The notes under the pieces were generated by a model that saw only the letters and a program-made list of their open reading frames with translations, ran no database searches and was not told the origin of the DNA. From a sulfur-oxidizing endosymbiont of Gigantopelta aegis (GTDB lineage Bacteria > Pseudomonadota > Gammaproteobacteria > GRL18): 64,000 nt of DNA. The position numbers and the translations under genes are program-made. Location: NCBI RefSeq assembly GCF_016097415.1, contig NZ_JAEHGE010000001.1:893001-957000 (forward strand), read 5' to 3'. Shown one piece after another: positions 32,987-57,308 of the stretch; positions within the stretch are counted from its first letter, which is position 1; each line of letters opens with the position of its first letter.

Positions 32987-33971
32987 ATGAGAACTTACAA
33001 GCAATTGACACAAGAACAAAGATACTACATTTCGACTGAGATTAAAAATGGCATTTCCCAGTCTAAAATTGCTCAGGCGATTGAGGTGAGTAAATCTACT
33101 ATATGCCGTGAAATTAAACGCAACGCTGGTTTACGTGGCTATCGATTTAAGCAAGCTCAAGAAAAAGCCGTTAAGCGTCGCTACAATGCTTCTAAAGCAA
33201 TTAAAATGACGGATGACATGATTGCCCTTATTGATGAAAAGCTTTCACAGCACCAGTGGAGTCCTGAACAGATATCAGGTTGGTTACTGAATGACAAAAT
33301 GCTACTTCTTAGCCATGAACGTATTTATCAACACATATGGGATGATAAGAAGCAAGGTGGTGATTTACATCAGTATTTAAGGCGTCAGGGAAAGAAATAC
33401 CAAAAGCGTGGTAGTAACGGTAAAAGCAGTCGAGGACAAATAATTAATCGAATTTCCATTGATGACCGACCTAAGATTGTTGATGATAAACGTCGTGTTG
33501 GTGACTGGGAAATTGATACAGTGATCGGTAAAGGACACAGTGGTGCTCTGGTCACGATTGTAGAAAGAAAAACGCTTTACACATTAGTATGGTAAACAGG
33601 CTGATTGGGTGACACAAGCAACAATACAATTGCTTAAACCCTTTAAAGACAGGCTTCATAGTATTACCGCAGACAATGGCAAAGAGTTTGCTTATCATGA
33701 GCAGGTAAGCAAAGCTCTTGATACAGCATTTTATTTTGCCCACCCTTATTCTTCATGGGAGCGAGGGTTAAATGAAAATACTAATGGACTGATTAGACAA
33801 TATTTTCCTAAAGATACAGACTTTAAAGAAGTGACTGATAAAGAGGTTTACAACATGATGGAAAAACTTAATAATAGACCTAGAAAGGCACTCGGCTTTC
33901 AAACACCATTCCAGGCAATGAAAAAATCATTTGCAAGAACTGGAATTTCCTGCGTTGCACTTCAGAGTTGA
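32987..33971 (+). pseudogene. IS30-family transposase, frameshifted
   Basis: The N-terminal HTH (YKQLTQEQRYYISTEIKNGISQSKIAQAIEVSKSTICREIKRN) and the first DDE Asp (VGDWEIDTVIGKGHSG) are in one frame. The frame breaks at about 33590, where extra bases interrupt what should read TLYTLVKQADWVTQA. The second half continues in another frame with ITADNGKEFAYH (second Asp) and the catalytic Glu region LNENTNGLIRQYFPK. It is probably inactive unless a programmed shift occurs. Confidence 0.85.
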
Positions 33972-34166
33972 ATCCGCGCCTTAAATTTAGAGACTGATCA
34001 TATGGATAATTTAATCAGCAATGAGTTTAGTGACAACGATGATGAGCACTCAGAAGACGCAGAAGTTTATGATAAAGAATCGTACGCTGAGTGTGGTTTG
34101 CATGATTTTAAAATAGTATTACTATCATGGCAGGCATATATTAACTAATACACAGTAGTTCTACAC

Positions 34167-34600
34167 AGTAGTTCTAGACACCCATCGATTGAGATTTATT
34201 TCTATCAAACGATGGGTGTCATCAAGAGAGCTATTCTATTTTATTTCCCCTACAATTAAAACTATCCCTTCCCACTCACGTAGAATAACGTAGGATGCTG
34301 CTAAGGCACGAAGCGCATCAGCAATGCTTAATTAAATATCATAATGAATAAAAACACCATTTTTAAATAGGCTATCTTTTTATATGGAATTTTTCCATGT
34401 TGGTTGGCTAATATGGGATTAAGTGGAAAGTTTTCCATGTTAAGAGGGCATATATCAGCTTTAGTGGAAAATATTATTATGTTTATTGAATTATGCCTTT
34501 ATTTTCCATGTTTAGGGGGGTAATATCAGTTTAAGTGGAAAATTTAGGCAGTTATTAAAAATTTATCATGGAAAATTTTCCGTTAAAAAAGATCGTTAGG
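34167..34600. repeat. Structured cassette-joined element, copy 1 (3 hairpin units)
   Basis: Left end AGTAGTTCTAGACACCC, starting a hairpin (GACACCCATCG / CGATGGGTGTC). Then follows a REP-like stretch GTAGGATGCTGCTAAGG at 34290. Next come three units of the form TTTTCCATGTT...GTGGAAAA, each able to fold, and a constant right end finishing GATCGTTAGG. GTTAGGC at 34595-34601 is a perfect GTTRRRY integron core. Copies 2 and 3 have the same ends but five units. No ORF is visible. A partial duplicate of the left end (AGTAGTTCTA) lies just upstream at 34154. Confidence 0.85.
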
Positions 34601-34617
34601 CATAATAAAATAAATCA

Positions 34618-34968
34618 ATGAAACAAATTGCATTTACAATTGGATTGCTTATTTGCAGCAATATCTTTATGACATTTGCTTGGTATGCACATCTTAAAGA
34701 ATTGAATAATAAACCTTGGATTGTGGCGGCATTAATCAGCTGGGGAATCGCATTATTTGAATATATGTTTCAGGTGCCAGCAAACAGAATTGGCTACACA
34801 GTACTTACGATTGGACAATTAAAAATAATTCAGGAAGTAATAACATTGAGTGTGTTCGTTCCATTTTCACTTTATTATATGAAAGAGCCATTGAAAATGG
34901 ATTACCTGTGGGCGGGCCTTTGTCTTGTTGGTGCAGTATATTTTATGTTTCGCAGCAAATTTGTTTGA
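34618..34968 (+). CDS. DMT-family small membrane protein (DUF486)
   Basis: This 116-residue protein has four hydrophobic segments and the DUF486 pattern: ICSNIFMTFAWYAHLK, LISWGIALFEYMFQVPANRIGY, LTIGQLKIIQEVITL and WAGLCLVGAVYFMF. Its role is presumably small-molecule efflux or transport, not established. It starts 18 bases after the GTTAGG end of element copy 1. It is the first gene of a two-gene cassette closed by an attC-like site at 35311. Confidence 0.85.
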   Translation: MKQIAFTIGLLICSNIFMTFAWYAHLKELNNKPWIVAALISWGIALFEYMFQVPANRIGYTVLTIGQLKIIQEVITLSVFVPFSLYYMKEPLKMDYLWAGLCLVGAVYFMFRSKFV

Positions 34969-35010
34969 TGTACAGCAAAGTCTATTAATATCAAATAGGG
35001 GAATTTAATT

Positions 35011-35283
35011 TTGGAATACAAAGTATTCTTCACTATATTTGCAACTGTATTTATTGCAGAACTTGGTGATAAAACTCAACTGGCTACAATGTTATTTGCG
35101 TCAGACAAAGAAGTAAGTAAACTTATGGTGTTTTTTGGAGCATCACTAGCGCTTGTAGTAGCGTCAGGTATGGGTGTTCTTGCTGGAGGCGTTATATCTC
35201 AATATGTAAGCGAAAAACATCTTAATTATATTGCCGGTATTGGTTTCTTAAGTATCGGAATATGGACATTAATTAAAGCCTAA
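35011..35283 (+). CDS. TMEM165/GDT1-family (UPF0016) half-size cation transporter
   Basis: This 90-residue protein has three hydrophobic segments and the family signature E17-L-G-D-K-T22, the motif that binds the transported cation in GDT1-type Ca/Mn exporters. Full-length members have two such repeats; this one has a single repeat, so it would need to dimerise. It is read from TTG 35011, after an AGGGGAATT region. It lies 42 bases after the DUF486 gene and in the same cassette-like unit. Confidence 0.85.
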   Translation: MEYKVFFTIFATVFIAELGDKTQLATMLFASDKEVSKLMVFFGASLALVVASGMGVLAGGVISQYVSEKHLNYIAGIGFLSIGIWTLIKA

Positions 35284-35310
35284 TAAGTAACTCAAGTGGA
35301 ATAAAAAAAT

Positions 35311-35373
35311 GCCTAACGAATAAGGTTAGATTGTGAGAGCGGAGCGAACCACAATCTGAACCGTTTGTTGGAC
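35311..35373 (+). other. attC-like integron recombination site 1
   Basis: 5' core GCCTAAC (fits RYYYAAC) at 35311-35317 and 3' core GTTGGAC (fits GTTRRRY) at 35367-35373. The two halves are imperfect complements (GGTTAGATTGTG against the complement of CACAATCTGAACC), with extra unpaired bases and a 14-base loop. It is 63 bp in total and lies 28 bases after the stop of the GDT1-like gene, as expected for a cassette 3' end. Confidence 0.82.
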
Positions 35374-35592
35374 GAACCCGATTTTAGTGTTATGAAAATA
35401 GCTTTTTAAGAATTGATAGCTTTGATGTTAAAACACCAACCAAAATAATTTCGAATTGAATTTTGGTTGGTAAAAAGGCATTTAGGAATAAAAATCAGAA
35501 AATTAGGGTGTTTTTTCTCAATTTTAGACAGACTAACCCCTTGGTCATTTAAGACCTTTTTTTCAGTACCGATGAGGTGAATATTCAGAATA

Positions 35593-36055
35593 TCATTTCA
35601 TCACTCCAATGGGTGGCTTTTTATCAGGAAAGAAATTAACCGGGATTTGAGTTTTAACAATCTCCATTTTATGCCCGCAACAAGCACAAACCATTTGAGC
35701 TCTTTTCTTTATTTTAGCGATCCATGCTTTAGGGTTGATTTTAAAAAGAAGCTGAATGAGTTGAATTAATTTTTTACTATTGTGATGCAGAAAACCGTAA
35801 TCTCTGGCACGCCTGAATCCCCTTGGTAGGATATGCTGAAAAACTTGCCATAAGAACTTGATGGCCGAGATTGTTTTTGTTTGATATTTTTTCGTTTTAC
35901 TATCTTGATATCGAAAAGTGACCTGTCCATTGTGACAGGTCAAAATATCCTTTTCCTGTATGACACCACGATAAAGATAGCGTCCTAAATAAACCAACGC
36001 CTTATTACCCTGGCCTACATGGCGGCAATCAACGACCCATTTATCAGGATAATGT
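35593..36055 (-). pseudogene. IS91-family transposase, C-terminal remnant
   Basis: The reverse strand reads VVDCRHVGQGNKALVYLGRYLYRGVI, then YQTKTISAIKFLWQVFQHILPRGFRRARDYGFLH, a typical C-terminal part of IS91-type HUH transposases. A late Cys pair follows (MVCACCGHK). The N-terminal catalytic domain is missing: at about 36055 the reading passes into an 83-bp repeat also found at 42988. It overlies the tail of the cassette unit that ends in attC 1. The 35374-35592 stretch next to it shows no gene; it has an imperfect ACCAACCAAAAT hairpin. Confidence 0.75.
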
Positions 36056-36138
36056 GAAGCAATTATTGCCACCCACCAAATAAAAAGCAATATCAAAGCT
36101 AAATTGTAAAAAAATTTCTTCTCGAAATGTAAATTTAC
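36056..36138. repeat. 83-bp direct repeat, copy 1
   Basis: This block (AAGCAATTATTGCCACCCAC ... CTCGAAATGTAAATTTACA) is nearly identical to 42988-43070. Copy 1 runs from the broken IS91 gene straight into the left end of structured element copy 2. Read on the minus strand it encodes a hydrophobic peptide (FFYNLALILLFIWWVAII). Its origin is unknown. Confidence 0.8.
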
Positions 36139-36691
36139 AGTAGTTCTAGACACCCATCGATTGAGATTTATTTCTATCAAACAATGGGTGTCATCAAGAG
36201 AGCTATTCTATTCTATTTTATTTCCCCTATAATTAAAACTATCCCTTCCCACTCACGTAGAATAACGTAGGATGCTGCTAAGGCACGAAGCGCATCAGCA
36301 ATGCTTAATTAAATATCATAATGAATAAAAACACCATTTTTAAATAGGCTATCTTTTTATATGGAATTTTTCCATGTTGGTTGGCTAATATCGGATTAAG
36401 TGGAAAGTTTTCCATATTAGGCGGCTAATATCGGTTTAAGTGGAAAATATTAAAAATTGACTTTCAGCTTAGGTCGGAATTTTTCCATGTTAGGGCATCT
36501 AATATCTGTTTTAGTGGAAAATTTTCCATGTTAAGGGGGCATATATCGGCTTTAGTGGAAAATATTATTATGTTTATTGAATTATGCCTTTATTTTCCAT
36601 GTTTAGGGGGGTAATATCAGTTTAAGTGGAAAATTTAGGCAGTTATTAAAAATTTATCATGGAAAATTTTCCGTTAAAAAAGATCGTTAGG
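36139..36691. repeat. Structured cassette-joined element, copy 2 (5 hairpin units)
   Basis: Same left end (AGTAGTTCTAGACACCC) and right end (GATCGTTAGG) as copy 1. It has five TTTTCCAT...GTGGAAAA units, including one with GACTTTCAGCTTAGGTC between units. The right core with the following base is GTTAGGT at 36686-36692, matching GTTRRRY. It is joined directly to a different small membrane-protein gene at 36707. Confidence 0.87.
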
Positions 36692-36706
36692 TTACATGAG
36701 GGTTAC

Positions 36707-37000
36707 ATGAAGTTGTTTCGGATCATGTTCGGCGTAGTTCTAATCGGTACATCGCTGTTAGTATTAGCTTTGTCTTTTCTATTCGCCGTGTCTCAGATAC
36801 AGAAGACGGACTTTTTTCAACTTGGACATCTTCAAGAAGCAGTCAAGCATGTGCGAGACCGTGAAAAAGCGACTGGTGATATTCCTACTTCAAAAGAGTT
36901 TATAGAATGGACGAGCAAAATGGATGCTGTTGAATCATATCGCTTTGAGGGATATGGCGAGAGGATTTTGTTACTTTCTATTCTTGGCAGCCGTCATTGA
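36707..37000 (+). pseudogene. Small membrane protein, probably cut by IS3-associated rearrangement
   Basis: From ATG 36707 there are 97 residues with one strong membrane segment (IMFGVVLIGTSLLVLALSFLFAV) and a charged helical domain, ending ILLLSILGSRH. A second hydrophobic tail ([19 protein letters not shown]) is fused to the end of the IS3 fragment at about 38045-38116, just before attC 2. I infer that it is the lost C-terminus of this gene. The family is not recognised. Region 37001-37329 holds no gene; it includes a 40-bp block shared with 46296-46335. Confidence 0.5.
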
Positions 37001-37329
37001 GATTCGTAATAGTGAACTCTGAAATACAGCAGGAAATAGCTTAAATCGATTGATTGAAGAGGGGTAAAAGGCGACATAAATGCCGCCCATTACCGTTGAC
37101 GGCCATCGGCTCCTCAGCCTGTGCCGTGAAGATATTGTAACAGGATCATTACCGTTGTGAAAATACCTTGGGTGAATGGAACGGCTCTATCGTTCCAGAG
37201 GGCAAAGCCCTTTCTCTTCATCTGTTTAAAGTTAACATGAGAAACTAAAATGATAGGAAATACAAAATGACAAAAATCACTTGAAACAGCCAAAAAATAT
37301 TTAGAAAACTGTCCGGAAAAGTGCACATC

Positions 37330-38042
37330 ATGAAGCGCTTACTGAGCAGCTAAAAAACTGTTTGAAGACAGTCGCAAGACTTATGGAACCCGTCGTCTTA
37401 AAAGAAAACTGGCTGAAAAAGGCGTTCATATAAGCCGCCGGAGAATTGGTCGATTAATGAAAAAAGCCGGTTTGTTTTGTAAAACGAAGAGACGCTTTAA
37501 AGCGACGACTAATTCCAAGCATAATAAGCGTATATCTCCAAATTTACTGGAAAGAGAGTTTACTGTCTCTCAACCTGATCGCTACTATGTGGGTGATATT
37601 ACCTATATTGCCACCAAGGAAGGCTGGTTATATTTAGCGGTTGTCATTGACTTATTCTCTAGGCAAATTGTTGGCTGGTCGATGGATGAGCGAATGAAAG
37701 CCAAGCTAGTCAATGATGCTTTACTGATGGCCATATGGAAGCGTAAACCAATGGATGGATTGCTTTGGCATACTGACCGAGGTAGCCAATATGCCTCTGA
37801 TAGTCATAGAAAAATATTGTCGGATCATAACATAATTCAGTCTATGAGCCGCAAAGGAAATTGCTGGGACAATGCTGTATCAGAGAGCTTCTTTCATAGT
37901 TTGAAAACTGAATTGACGCACCATTGTCGATTCAAAACCAGAGTAGAAGCAAAGCAGGCAATATTTGAATATATTGAGGTATTTTATAATCGGGAGCGAC
38001 TTCATTCGGCTAATCATCACTCTCCGAGAATTTTTTATTCAA
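37330..38042 (+). mobile_element. IS3-family element, copy A (internal orfB fragment)
   Basis: Nucleotide identity with the element at 55269 begins at ATGAAGCGCTTACTGAGC (37330) and covers the orfB DDE core: [40 protein letters not shown] and [25 protein letters not shown]. It keeps the natural orfB C-terminus ([10 protein letters not shown]) that copy C has lost, but lacks both inverted repeats. The early frame is disturbed as in the other copies. Downstream it fuses to cassette-gene sequence. Confidence 0.85.
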
Positions 38043-38131
38043 TTATGCTATTCGCAATAGGAGTGGCCGGCGTTCTCTTCGGAAAACGGATGCTGGTAAC
38101 AAAGAGCATTCAGTAGAGCATTAGTATTGAA

Positions 38132-38204
38132 ACCTAACAATCACATTAAGTCGGATTGCAATTCCGCTACGCTCCATTGCAACCGCTTATGTGTGGCGTT
38201 AGCT
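38132..38204 (+). other. attC-like integron recombination site 2
   Basis: 5' core ACCTAAC (fits RYYYAAC) at 38132-38138 and 3' core GTTAGCT (one base off GTTRRRY) at 38198-38204. Inner halves TCGGATTGCAAT and ATTGCAACCGC pair, with a 13-base TCCGCTACGCTCC loop and extra unpaired bases. The 73-bp length and the TTAGC boundary are classic. The next ORF starts 10 bases later. Confidence 0.85.
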
Positions 38205-38213
38205 TATAAAAAA

Positions 38214-38618
38214 ATGAAATCTCCTATATATAGTCTTGAAAAACACATAAAGGATAGTGTTTACAAAATTGCACCAGAAAACGAAATTGAACTTGATTCG
38301 TGGTGTAAAGAAAATAATTTTAAAATAGAACTAGTCGAGAAAAATGGGTTTAATTTTAATGTCAGCATAAAAAATAAAAAGGTTAAATTACCAGTTGCAG
38401 CGTTAGAATATTTATGGGCTGCAACACATACATACCTTGTGCTCTATGATGAATACTCAACTGCTCAAAAAAAAGGGGCTAAGCTTTATGATACTGGCGG
38501 AAGTAGTTCTAGACACCCATCGATTGAGATTTATTTCTATCAAACGATGGGTGTCATCAAGAGAGCTATTCTATTTTATTTCCCCTATAATTCTTCCCAC
38601 TCACGTAGAATAACGTAG
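38214..38618 (+). CDS. Unknown cassette protein, C-terminus replaced by structured element
   Basis: ATG 38214 lies 10 bases after attC 2. About 95 residues are unique (MKSPIYSLEKHIKDSVYKIA ... LYDEYSTAQKKGAKLYDTGG). From 38501 the reading enters element copy 3 and adds an unrelated tail to a stop at 38618. The original C-terminus and its own attC are therefore missing. No recognisable family; it is mixed alpha/beta in composition with no membrane segment. Confidence 0.6.
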   Translation: MKSPIYSLEKHIKDSVYKIAPENEIELDSWCKENNFKIELVEKNGFNFNVSIKNKKVKLPVAALEYLWAATHTYLVLYDEYSTAQKKGAKLYDTGGSSSRHPSIEIYFYQTMGVIKRAILFYFPYNSSHSRRIT

Positions 38619-39039
38619 GATGCTGCTAAGGCACGAAGCGCATCAGCAATGTTGAATTAAATATCATAATGAATAAAAACACCATTTTTAAATAGGCTAT
38701 CTTTTTATATGGAAATTTTCCATGTTGGTTGGCTAATATGGGATTAAGTGGAAAATTTTCCATGTTAGGCGGCTAATATCGGTTTAAGTGGAAAATATTA
38801 AAAATTGACTTTCAGCTTAGGTCGGAATTTTTCCATGTTAGGGCATCTAATATCTGTTTTAGTGGAAAGTTTTCCATGTTAAGAGGGCATATATCGGCTT
38901 TAGTGGAAAATATTATTATGTTTATTGAATTATGCCTTTATTTTCCATGTTTAGGGGGGTAATATCAGTTTAAGTGGAAAATTTAGGCAGTTATTAAAAA
39001 TTTATCATGGAAAATTTTCCGTTAAAAAAGATCGTTAGG
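38501..39039. repeat. Structured cassette-joined element, copy 3 (5 hairpin units)
   Basis: Left end AGTAGTTCTAGACACCC interrupts the upstream ORF; the right end GATCGTTAGG joins another membrane-protein gene. The five-unit arrangement equals copy 2, but individual units share point differences with copy 1 (for example GGGATTAAG and GTTAAGAGGGC), so the copies have exchanged sequence or diverged independently. The next base after GTTAGG is A here, C in copy 1 and T in copy 2. Confidence 0.87.
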
Positions 39040-39047
39040 ATAAAATA

Positions 39048-39431
39048 TTGAAGCGTGTCATGTTAGTAATAGAACTACTAATGCTGTGCGGCCCAGCAGT
39101 CGTAATGCTTTCAGTTGGGCTGTTGTACTCGCCCGTCTTTTTATTTGGTTCTGTCTCCATAGAAGGAGACTGGTACATTGGAGCGCTAATAATTTTTTGT
39201 GGTACATGGGGCTTCATTTCATTGGGAAATCTTGCATTACATATTCTTAGCAAAAGAAATTGGCTGGGTCACCCTGTTCAATGGTTTGGCATACTATTAG
39301 GTATTGCTGCCTCCGGCATTGGGCTATCTACTATGACAAATACTAATTTTATGCTGTGGGTGTTTGTTGCGCCTATTATTGCCGCCCTTCATCTTTTGTA
39401 TTTGTCGAAAAAATGTACTCAAATATCCTAA
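39048..39431 (+). CDS. Small integral membrane protein of unknown function (cassette gene)
   Basis: This protein has 127 residues from TTG 39048, or 123 from ATG 39060, with four hydrophobic segments (IELLMLCGPAVVMLSVGLLYS, IGALIIFCGTWGFISLGNLAL, WFGILLGIAASGIGL, LWVFVAPIIAALHLLYL). It starts 8 bases after element copy 3, and its stop codon overlaps the 5' core of attC 3, so it is a tight cassette. No family recognised. Confidence 0.7.
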   Translation: MKRVMLVIELLMLCGPAVVMLSVGLLYSPVFLFGSVSIEGDWYIGALIIFCGTWGFISLGNLALHILSKRNWLGHPVQWFGILLGIAASGIGLSTMTNTNFMLWVFVAPIIAALHLLYLSKKCTQIS

Positions 39432-39537
39432 CAAGTAAATTAACGCAGACCCGAAAAGTTACGCACCTTTTGTGGCGCTTCGCTATAATGCCACAAAAGG
39501 CACGAAACTTTTCAGTCTGGTTATTAAAGCGTTAGAG
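39426..39537 (+). other. attC-like integron recombination site 3
   Basis: 5' core TCCTAAC at 39426-39432 and 3' core GTTAGAG at 39531-39537, each one base off consensus. The long paired arms (GAAAAGTTACGCACCTTTTG against CAAAAGGCACGAAACTTTTC) are closed by a 13-base GCTTCGCTATAAT loop. It is 112 bp long, within the known size range of attC sites. It overlaps the stop of the preceding gene by a few bases and precedes the next gene by 13. Confidence 0.82.
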
Positions 39538-42987: not shown

Positions 42988-43070
42988 AAGCAATTATTGC
43001 CACCCACCAAATAAAAAGCAATATCAAAGCTAAATTGTAAAAAAATTTCTTCTCGAAATGTGAATTTACA
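42988..43070. repeat. 83-bp direct repeat, copy 2
   Basis: Nearly identical to 36056-36138 (one clear G/A difference near the right end). Here it follows the MORN-like cassette gene and is not next to a structured element. The region on to 43206 has no recognisable gene. Confidence 0.8.
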
Positions 43071-45348: not shown

Positions 45349-47122
<1,774 letters not shown>

Positions 47123-53144: not shown

Positions 53145-55268
53145 TCATGTTGACTTCAGTCTGCTTTGAGAGGCTATTATGGCTATTTTTTTATCAGCTT
53201 AGTCATGGCACAAAATGTTGCCGCAGACTATACCGTTGATTATGGTGATGGCACTATAGAAACATTTTCCAGCGCACCATGGACGGCAGGGAAGCCCAAG
53301 CCTCAATTGCCTCGCATAGTTATAGCAATTTAGCGCATTTATCAACTTACCTCATGGCGAAATTGGATTGTGCATGATGGCTTGGCCGATCTCTATACTG
53401 ATAACCTGAGTATCATTGTTGGCAATGTTGTTCAACAATGGGATTATGGTGATAACACGCCACTGACACTTCAACTGTCGATTTATGTACCACTGTTTTA
53501 ACTCCTAGCAGCCATAGCTACACTCAAGGCAGGTACTTATACTGCCACTTATAAAGCCGTGGATTATAACAATAATATTATCAGCGATAGTGTTGAAGTG
53601 ATTGTCACCGCCATTGCCGATCACTATGCCATCAGTCATAGCCTCACTCGTGACTGTCACGGCTCATGACATTAATCATGCCGCACTAGATATTAGCTCC
53701 AATGCCAGCATCACCATCACTACTACGCCCGCTGTTGATAGTATTATTAGCTCACCACTGAGTATTTTGGCAGGTACCTCCTCAGCGACTTTTTACCTGG
53801 CACAAAGCACGGTCTCCAGTATTGATATTAATGTCACTGATGGTAATTCAACTGAATTAACCGGTGCTGCCATTGCATCAGAAGATTTACCTCTAAACTT
53901 TACCAACACAGCCTTTCGCTTTATCGATATAGCCAGCCTCAGCACCTTGGCAATTGGCAAGCAAATAGGCAGCAAGCCCTCTTCCACCGCGCCGGGCGCA
54001 CAGAACATTGGCCTGCAAGCCATTCGTACTGATACACAGAGTGGTGCTTGCACCACTGCTTTTGCCAACGTAAACACAGCGGTTAATTTTGCCTATGAAT
54101 GCAATAATCCAAGCAGTTGTCAGCCGACAATACCACCACACCCCCCATCAGCGCGGCAACACTCAGCGTTAGCGGTCAATTTATTGTCCGACCTTTTGGC
54201 TTCACCATCACCGTCACTGGAAATCCTGCTGCCAGTAGTAGCACAGGCAGTGTCTTTAGAAAAGCCGGTGAAGCATTTACAGCCAGCGCTCAGGCGGTTT
54301 TGTATCAAGCCATTGATGATAGTGATAATGATGGCATTCCTGATGGCCATAATGACAGCATCCCCAGTAATAATACTTCACTCTCAGATAATGCTCTAGC
54401 CACTAATTTTGGCAATGAAATCTCCTCTGAAAGCATATAAGTCTGTGCAAAACTTGAAATAAAAAACAAAAAAGTCTTGACAGCATTTTAGAGGACAAAA
54501 TTGCATTTTCACTGCCCCATGTAATTTATCCCTATAAATGATCCTGTCGATCTGTCTCAGATCGAAATAGAATATTTTTGAATATTATCTTAACTGAGAG
54601 GGAGTTTGATCAACACAGGGCAAACTAAAGAGCCTTAAAAAGCCATGATACAATTGTTTTATTGAAAACAACCTGTATTGATTATAGTGAAAAAATTACC
54701 TCCAATTCCAGAGATACCTGAAGAAGAAAAGACACCGGTAGTCCGATTACTCCTTGCTTTCATGGAGCAACAACAGGAAATCATTCAAAACCAACAGGTT
54801 GAAATCGATGCCCTTAAAACAGAAGTTGCTAAGCTTAAAAAGCTACCTCCAAAGCCTAAAATAAGAGCCAGTAAATTGCCAAAGGATGATGACAATGATA
54901 ATCCGACAGGTCATTCAGGAAGCAAGAAAAACAACTCAGGAAATGGGACTAGTAAAAGTCGTAAACGAAAGAAGAAATTGGCTATTCATAAAACCACCGT
55001 TATCAAACCAGATAACCTGCCAGAACATTCACGTTTTTTAGGGTATCAGGATTATTTTGTTCAGGAGCTGCTGATTAAGCCTTTCAATACTCGTTATCGA
55101 TTGGCTCGCTATAAAACACCCGATGGTGATACCTGTATAGGAAAATTGAGCTTTGATACACATATAGGACATTTTGGCCATACATTACAGAGTTATATCG
55201 TTTATCAATATTATCACCAGAGAGTGACTCAGCCATTGATAATACAACAATTAACAGAATTAGGTTTA

Positions 55269-56422
55269 ATGTGGCTATACTTAACCGGACACACAACTTA
55301 AAATAACTAAAAGATAAAAAGTGTGACCTAAAATGAATGATCAAACAAAAAAACCGAATAAAAGCTATACATCAGAATTTAAAGAATCAGCTGTCAAATT
55401 AGCTAATGAGACGGATCAACCCGTTTCTCAGACTGCCAGGGAGCTAGGTGTTAATGTAAATACTCTACATACCTGGATCAGTAAATATTCCAAACCGGTG
55501 AAGACGGTAGCCAATAGAAGTGATGAACACATTTATGATGAAGTAAAACGTCTGAAAAAAGAATTGGCAAAAGTGATTCAGGAGCGTGATTTATTAAAAG
55601 GCCACAGCGTACTTTGCAAGGGAAACTTTGTGAAGTACGCATGGATAACTGATCAGGCTAAAGATTACCCGGTAACGATTCTGTGCCGTTTTATGGATGT
55701 TTCCCGTAGTTGCTATTATGATTGGGTTAGCTCTCCTAAAACGGATAGAGAGAAAGAAAATGAAGCGCTTACTGAGCAGCTAAAAAACTGTTTGAAGACA
55801 GTCGCAAGACTTATGGAACCCGTCGTCTTAAAAAGAAAACTGGCTGAAAAAGGCGTTCATATAAGCCGCCGGAGAATTGGTCGATTAATGAAAAAAGCCG
55901 GTTTGTTTTGTAAAACGAAGAGACGCTTTAAAGCGACGACTAATTCCAAGCATAATAAGCGTATATCTCCAAATTTACTGGAAAGAGAGTTTACTGTCTC
56001 TCAACCTGATCGCTACTATGTGGGTGATATTACCTATATTGCCACCAAGGAAGGCTGGTTATATTTAGCGGTTGTCATTGACTTATTCTCTAGGCAAATT
56101 GTTGGCTGGTCGATGGATGAGCGAATGAAAGCCAAGCTAGTCAATGATGCTTTACTGATGGCCATATGGAAGCGTAAACCAATGGATGGATTGCTTTGGC
56201 ATACTGACCGAGGTAGCCAATATGCCTCTGATAGTCATAGAAAAATATTGTCGGATCATAACATAATTCAGTCTATGAGCCGCAAAGGAAATTGCTGGGA
56301 CAATGCTGTATCAGAGAGCTTCTTTCATAGTTTGAAAACTGAATTGACGCACCATTGTCGATTCAAAACCAGAGTAGAAGCAAAGCAGGCAACATTTGAA
56401 TATATTGAAAGTGTTGACACAT
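55269..56422 (+). mobile_element. IS3-family element, copy C (most complete)
   Basis: The 1154-bp element has a left end ATGTGGCTATACTTAACCGG and a right end AAAGTGTTGACACAT that form an imperfect inverted repeat. It is inserted in the transposase gene of the IS66-like element. It keeps orfA and most of orfB but lacks about 60 bases of the orfB 3' end present in copy A. No obvious target duplication. Confidence 0.87.
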
Positions 56423-56427
56423 TTTGA
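55333..56427 (+). CDS. IS3-family transposase, orfA and orfB fused in one frame
   Basis: 364 residues. The OrfA part has an HTH_Tnp_1 ([38 protein letters not shown]) and a leucine zipper-like [18 protein letters not shown]. OrfB starts [31 protein letters not shown], with the DDE core [22 protein letters not shown] and [17 protein letters not shown]3 elements usually make OrfAB by -1 slippage on an A-run; here the run at the junction (TTATTAAAAGGCC) is short and the frames are already joined. A run of about 17 residues ([16 protein letters not shown]) is in the wrong frame between two compensating indels. The C-terminus is cut. Confidence 0.85.
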
Positions 56428-57308
56428 TATTTCAACAGGTCAGATCAATGAGATTTTAATCCATGACAAAGACCATTTTCATACTGAAAAAAATACATTG
56501 CTAACTGCCGGTATCAACAATAGTACTTATATCCATGTTGATGATACGGGTAGTCGTCATGATGGAAAGAATGGTTATTGTACTCACGTTGGCAATGAAA
56601 CCTTTGCCTGGTTTTCAAGTACTCGATATAAGAGCCGGATTAATTTTCTACAATTGTTACGAGGTGCTGCTGTTGATTATACGCTCAACGATGCAGCACT
56701 TGATTATATGAGCAGAAAAATTACCTCACAAGCCATTGAGCGTTATTGAACAAAGTCATCAGACTTGCTTTGATAATGAAGAAGCCTGGAAATACTATCT
56801 GCAGAACAATAGTATCATAACACAACGGCATGTTCGCATTGCCACAGAAGGCGCTTTACTGGGGCATTAATTAACAGTGGCTTTCCAAGTGATTTGGTGA
56901 TTGTGTTGATGTTGTCATGGACATTGGTTTGAATGGTGATCAGTTTTTCTGGCTACAATATGATTGGGATGGCGATGGTGATTATTTTGATACCGCAGGT
57001 GATGCTAGCCTGCCTGGAAAGGGCAATAACCCACCCTACAGTCGAGCAAGCTTTGGTATTTATAATCGCTCTAAACGTATTATTTATACCCGTGAATTAT
57101 ACTGAATGGGCTACGAGCCATCATAGGAAATACTGCTTTGAATTTTTCTAAAAACATAAAAAGTATCACCGACTAAACCTCTTCTGGCACTAATAGCGAT
57201 CGTCGTTATTCTGGGATTTAAAGAACAAGCACCCGGTGTCGCATCACAACAAGCTGGGCAAACATCATCACAGCGTTCAATTGCTGTTTGTTCACGGACG
57301 TTTTTCAT

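Follow-up and report, generated by a model that had tools for sequence, protein, structure and literature searches.

Helically phased palindromic arrays in the probable attI region of one integron integrase clade, with orphan copies in a gammaproteobacterial endosymbiont genome

The window analysed here, a stretch of 64,000 nucleotides (G000:C1:893001-957000) from the 4.9-Mb, 11-contig genome G000, carries an element whose copies hold different numbers of short self-complementary units. What is this element, and how did its unit number come to differ? A search of G000 with a 176-bp stretch of the element as query returned four other near-full copies, a two-unit copy and a truncated remnant, all on one 4.2-Mb contig and with E-values down to 1e-70, which excludes chance matches. 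The genome thus has six copies with a crossover (c1-c5 and p7) and one remnant. Copies c1, c2 and c3 lie in the window; c4 (G000:C1:742088-742447) and c5 (G000:C1:1174118-1174480, directly 3' of a gene that we take to be clpB from its translated sequence) are full copies outside it; p7 (G000:C1:823361-823476, minus strand) is a divergent two-unit copy, and p6 (G000:C1:2040520-2040691) is the remnant, which stops within unit 1. The identity of c1 is 98-99% to its nearest relatives c2-c4 and 95% to c5, the most divergent full copy. Alignment resolved three palindromic units in c1 and five each in c2, c3, c4 and c5, so the difference between copies (3 versus 5) reported in an earlier note on this DNA holds and extends to two copies outside the window; the unit size given there as 43-57 bp is corrected to ~39-47 bp, with start-to-start spacings of 40-74 bp. 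Specifically, the c1 array spans 34388-34545 with unit positions 34392, 34432 and 34503. On the plus strand, its unit 1 occupies 34388..34433, its unit 2 (34428..34474) corresponds to unit 4 of the five-unit copies with 98% identity, and its unit 3 (34499..34545) corresponds to their unit 5. The units of c2 are at 36369, 36409, 36482, 36523 and 36594, and those of c3 at 38717, 38757, 38830, 38871 and 38942.

Assemblies notoriously go wrong at near-identical repeats separated by 2 kb, and such an error could have produced the difference between three and five units. We regard it as very improbable, as c1 has its own point differences and its own flanks, all copies share a single contig and the separate two-unit copy p7 is present. 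As the earlier note had seen, c1 lacks two units and a spacer; the gap measures 114 aligned columns and takes in units 2 and 3 together with the GACTTTCAGCTTAGGTC spacer, which in c2 lie at 36405..36524 (plus strand). The 20-bp junction GTGGAAA[AG]TTTTCCATGTTA occurs in c3 both between units 1 and 2 and between units 3 and 4 (one mismatch), and only once in c1, so that one recombination or slippage event explains c1 as a single 114-bp deletion between near-identical unit junctions. By eye, the first unit of p7 is a hybrid of the left part of unit 1 and the right part of unit 4; p7 is a second, independent deletion. Recombination between such near-identical junctions would change the unit number and give the five, three and two units seen in G000. 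For c1, the sequences favour loss of units over gain, because c2-c4 and the divergent full copy c5 all have five. Three units with a spacing of ~40/71, the same layout as c1, are present in the relatives G012, G013 and G015, so three is probably the older number in the genus.

The informative sites of c1 are split between the other copies. It sides with c3/c4 and not with c2 at alignment columns 253 and 397 (and 44); at columns 96-105 (an indel of 10 bp), 165, 167, 228 and 268 it sides with c2 and not with c3/c4. Accordingly, c1 reads as a mosaic whose 5' letters are c2-like and whose 3' letters are c3/c4-like. The earlier observation that c1 and c3 share some point differences against c2 is thereby confirmed, and the proposal of unit loss by recombination or slippage with exchange among copies gains support from the 20-bp junctions, the hybrid unit of p7 and the mosaic c1. 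What that reading missed is that the element is an integron attI region, that its units behave as palindromic DNA sites and not as hairpins, and that its right boundary is a crossover GTT.

In the alignment, c1-c5 and p7 all end with ...TTAAAAAAGATC-GTT and diverge directly afterwards. A different gene or cassette stands beyond the GTT of each complete copy, with small genes after c1, c2 and c3; a GTT(RRRY) crossover followed by variable cassettes is found at c1-c5 and p7, and also in the genomes G427, G355 and G291. All window features that follow are on the plus strand. Copy c1 (34167..34597) begins with the shared 5' end AGTAGTTCTAG and closes with the crossover GTT at 34595-34597, and its core (34567..34597) comprises the last CATGGAAAATTTTCC palindrome, an L-box-like half-site and the GTT. 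The gene cassette at c1 (34595..35373) contains ORFs at 34618-34968 (116 aa) and 35011-35283 (90 aa) and ends in an attC-like site, GCCTAAC...GTTGGAC (35311..35373). Copy c2 (36139..36688) ends at the crossover GTT 36686-36688, and another attC-like site lies between c2 and c3 (38132..38204). Copy c3 (38502..39036), whose 5' end breaks into the frame of a cassette gene at 38220-38501, has its crossover GTT at 39034-39036 and is followed by a cassette (39034..39537) with an ORF at 39048-39431 (127 aa) and an attC-like site at 39426-39537. The cassettes of c4 (L009 8497-8556) and p7 (L011 4804-4748) likewise terminate in attC-like sites; the attC scan gave 1-6 matches in shuffled windows as well, so that its count is uninformative and only positions at cassette ends count. 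The element as an attC site of its own was considered and rejected, as the scan of the window placed no site over the element core and the units are conserved in sequence and have no compensatory pairs.

Does the same array occur beside an integrase gene elsewhere? We scanned a collection of 84,980 species, each represented by one genome, with a pattern made from part of the unit, and found the same arrays in deltaproteobacterial, SAR324, Desulfocapsa and Pseudomonadota metagenome-assembled genomes. In the first three, the array has an intI transcribed divergently on one side and the first cassette on the other; their integrases score 439, 434 and 408 bits against a TIGR02249 cut-off of 265. 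The scan yielded 12 loci: L058, L059, L061 and L064 are new arrays, L056 and L065 are those of G013 and G005 again, and L057, L060, L062, L063, L066 and L067 were discarded as single chance-like matches. A pattern scan of viral contigs gave two matches, both judged by eye to be single chance-like sites without an array.

Additionally, a covariance model of the unit (R1), built from 27 units, was run on 30 Desulfobacterota loci that are the best matches to the SAR324 integrase. Units were detected in 25 of the 30 (E<=0.01), all on the 5' side of intI; of the five misses, two have an array by eye, two have a flank of only 5-38 bp and one has no array. The array is found between intI and the first cassette in 27 of the 30 Desulfobacterota loci, in L058, L059, L061 and L107, and in G007 and G010 from the window's own genus; no intI adjoins the copies in the window, which therefore do not have this position. 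As controls, R1 found no unit at the window genome's own two integrase loci, units at G007 and G010 only among 21 IntI loci of the genus, and one weak match (20 bits, E 0.012, L181) among 20 Desulfobacterota loci of other IntI. Linkage to recJ was considered as a sign of the ancestral intI site and dropped: recJ adjoins intI only in G010 and is not beside intI in the examined DNA of 13 other genus genomes with recJ, so no ancestral position can be derived from it.

We computed a maximum-likelihood IntI tree of 63 rows, 34 labelled as having the array, 2 as truncated and 27 as having none. The array labels come from a model match in 31 cases and from inspection by eye in three (L138, L141 and L146, the last having a 5'-truncated intI and only half a unit left). 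The 34 array rows and one row with a cut flank form one clade with support 99/97, and 0 of the 27 rows without array fall inside it. The weak L181 match (588-634, genome G191) is unit-like and belongs to the attI region of an integrase that falls outside this clade; the array may be older than the clade.

In other genomes, then, the array of units fills the interval from intI to the first cassette and ends in an L-box-like half-site plus GTT, and G000 holds several copies without the clade integrase, each complete copy with a different cassette or gene at the GTT. Our reading, in which we have good confidence, is that the element is the attI region of one IntI clade, that the G000 copies are orphans and that the units are a predicted accessory binding array. 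The attI1 site of class 1 integrons has L and R boxes and the accessory IntI1 sites DR1 and DR2, as described in the passages cited (PMC12901181, PMC8946536, PMC8191803). Like attI1, the present element is positioned between intI and the first cassette, has a GTTRRRY crossover immediately preceded by an L-box-like half-site, and has further upstream extra sites that resemble accessory integrase-binding sites. Unlike attI1, with its 65 bp and two direct repeats, it has 1-5 palindromic units over roughly 100-330 bp, each of ~39-47 bp with two inverted half-sites and phased at ~10.1 bp.

No integrase of the array-bearing clade was found in G000. Its two intact integron integrases (G000:C1:1697370-1698305 and 998556-999512) are 36-40% identical to clade members and have a unit-free attI (AACTAGTCAATTACTTGTTA), which together rule out a resident IntI as the cognate enzyme, so the six crossover-bearing copies are orphan attI sites. 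Cassette-like genes follow the integrase at 998556-999512. Within the genus, G007 and G010 retain an intact clade intI, G014 has one that is 5'-truncated, and the gene is broken or fragmentary in G003, G013 and G015; arrays without an adjoining clade intI are present in G000, G004, G005, G012, G013 and G015. With these broken remnants in sister genomes, the G000 copies are probably orphan sites left, and copied around, after loss of the cognate intI. Two of the broken genes, L147 (G003, ~570-600) and L164 (G015, ~1480-1510), have an insert of ~24 bp (CACCAAAAGTAGGCTCACTATGAG) at the same place, and a similar insert recurs further on in L147; it is possibly a tiny mobile or repeated insert.

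Orphan arrays are not confined to this genus. The SAR324 genome has an intI-linked array and two arrays without intI, the latter sharing 287 bp at 90%. Among 395 Desulfobacterota genomes, at least 20 have the unit at E<=1e-5, a lower bound owing to strict filters, and at least 6 of those 20 have arrays on more than one contig. Of 26 distinct Desulfobacterota arrays, nine adjoin a full-length integrase (325-334 aa aligned), eight adjoin a fragment (38-192 aa), and for nine no integrase was detected in the flanking DNA examined. An intI stub remains at some Desulfobacterota copies, which makes it plausible that intI-attI segments were copied there and then truncated. Several SAR324 and Desulfobacterota genomes with orphan arrays keep an intact integrase elsewhere; in three such genomes, G427, G355 and G291, the homology between intI-linked and orphan arrays stops 1-2 bp past the GTT, as cassette insertion at that point predicts. 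The different cassettes at orphan copies show past use. Matching between IntI and attI is described as generally cognate in the passage cited (PMC8946536), so the cassettes at the G000 orphans are hard to account for without the cognate integrase; they may predate its loss.

Displaced attI sequences have precedents. In Shewanella prophage M16-3, an attI copy heads a cassette array without its own intI while an intact integron lies elsewhere in the prophage, according to the part of the report cited (PMC9892861); that is one extra attI copy, compared with six crossover-bearing copies and a remnant here, with no cognate integrase and a different attI type. In Delta-attI-type gene cassettes, the attC at the cassette end is replaced by mostly 14-18 nt of attI, as stated in the passage cited (PMC12901181). 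The present copies resemble these in that attI sequence is displaced from intI, and differ in that a whole attI region stands upstream of the cassette. Accessory sites are described for attI1 in the cited passages, by which most attI sites lack them (PMC12901181, PMC8946536, PMC8191803), and among the papers listed by searches of the open-licence literature, no title or abstract opening spoke of palindromic unit arrays in attI or of more than one orphan attI copy per genome. The attI site is a poorly understood part of the integron. Here a whole integrase clade (Desulfobacterota, SAR324 and a gammaproteobacterial genus) has a conserved, helically phased multi-unit attI, and its one to five units offer a natural series for testing the role of accessory sites. 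Annotation that seeks attI only beside intI would miss the orphan copies.

What are the units themselves? Each has the form TTTTCCAYGTT...TAATATCAG...TAAGTGGAAAA, an imperfect inverted repeat, and the earlier note held that each folds on itself. Folding as single DNA units gave z-scores of -1.2 to -3.9, the lowest for c2 unit 2, so this part stands weakly; compensatory change was absent, with two-sided change in 0 of 9 stem pairs across 27 diverse units and a covariation score not above shuffles. The units are conserved as sequence, which points to a palindromic site for a protein rather than to a hairpin folded from RNA or DNA. An Rfam search of window positions 33900-39200 gave two chance-level matches below gathering scores, none over the units. 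Despite the inverted-repeat form and the fold of c2 unit 2, a structured RNA or attC-like folding of single-stranded DNA hairpins is hence hardly credible, the more so as the spacing of the units points to double-stranded DNA.

Specifically, the start spacings of adjacent units (40-41, 51-52, 60, 70-73 and 80-82) are multiples of ~10.1 bp, which places the units on one helix face. With 31 spacings from 23 loci, leaving out c3, c4 and c5 as duplicates of c2, phasing reached R=0.90 at 10.1 bp; 0 of 5000 random sets were as high, or 1 of 5000 when distinct values alone were used. The half-site TTTTCCAYTTATT, the right arm of the units, recurs immediately ahead of the crossover. Between these two copies, 5.25 of 7 positions agree within loci versus 4.85 of 7 when shuffled (46 of 20000); the test used 36 of the 37 loci entered (G010 yielded no upstream arm), without L120, L125, L127, L142, L143, the near-copies c1, c3, c4, c5 and p7, and the SAR324 orphans. 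Both the phasing and the half-site statistics ignore shared ancestry. The pattern suggests a helically phased, protein-bound array, probably of accessory IntI sites. Each unit would be a pair of inverted half-sites, similar to the crossover-adjacent one, to which the integrase or a dedicated partner would bind, and the array of one to five units would build an accessory nucleoprotein complex that aids attI x attC recombination, the role played by DR1/DR2 in attI1. The simplest reading, by analogy with the binding of DR1/DR2 by IntI1, is that the integrase acting at the crossover may bind the units as well.

Instead of IntI, the units could bind a protein that regulates intI. The array would then be an operator region that controls intI and/or a cassette promoter through a host repressor or a LexA-like protein, outside the recombination site, and sequence-conserved palindromes with helical phasing would also suit a repressor array; moreover, at many loci the units reach up to or across the start codon of intI. 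We consider this rather unlikely, since TTTTCCAYTTATT recurs beside the crossover and matches the units better within than between loci, and orphan copies, which have no intI to control, retain intact arrays. Nor did a promoter and terminator scan of the window stretch rise above background (17 promoters found versus 19.6 expected). A further proposal can be made, tentatively and with less than even confidence: one integrase acting in trans may load several remote attI platforms that arose as copies away from intI across the chromosome. The phased array of one to five interchangeable units, changing in number by recombination, would tune the strength of cassette capture at each platform, with G000 as an end state in which the platforms were kept after the integrase had gone. 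Repeated orphan attI sites, some in genomes with an intact integrase, raise the question of whether one enzyme can run several insertion platforms.

How the copies came to be scattered brings in a last alternative, that the element is a non-autonomous, MITE-like element with internal hairpins, mobilized by a transposase in trans, its link to integrons being incidental. Copies c1-c4 share their 5' end in unrelated flanks, with AGTAGTTCTAG and a 16-bp inverted repeat (loop 12; 34177..34220, plus strand, in c1), c3 interrupts a cassette gene and remnants of insertion sequences are nearby. Against this, the copies invariably end 3' at the cassette crossover GTT and have no 5' end in common: c5, 3' of the presumed clpB, lacks the 16-bp repeat, and p6 and p7 differ as well. 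Across phyla the region keeps its place beside intI; the inverted repeats found are internal, none of them pairing the boundaries of a copy, and no target-site duplication was recognized by eye. A MITE-like nature is thus highly unlikely. The attI copies may still have been carried by movement driven by insertion sequences, and their 5' ends do not reveal the mode of movement.

Several other repeats surround the copies. Repeated, largely degraded insertion sequences, presumably IS3-like by reading, lie around the cassette region at window positions 37330-38116, 45434-46200 and 55267-56430. An 83-bp repeat, 99% identical, is present at 36057-36139, directly preceding c2, and at 42988-43070, each time following an unrelated gene. 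A REP-type palindrome (CGTAGGATGCTGCTRAGGCACGAAGCGCATCAG) lies inside the element (34289..34325, plus strand, in c1; also 36266-36302 and 38613-38649) and has roughly 40 further related short matches in G000, sometimes as opposed pairs elsewhere. A motif similar to AGTAATCTAGGCCACCCATCATTTG is repeated at gene and cassette junctions of L048 from G005 (4622, 5608, ~5697, 6072, 6341, 6889, 7993 and ~10074); it resembles the 5' end of c1-c4 (AGTAGTTCTAGACACCCATCGATTGA) and is perhaps an IS end.
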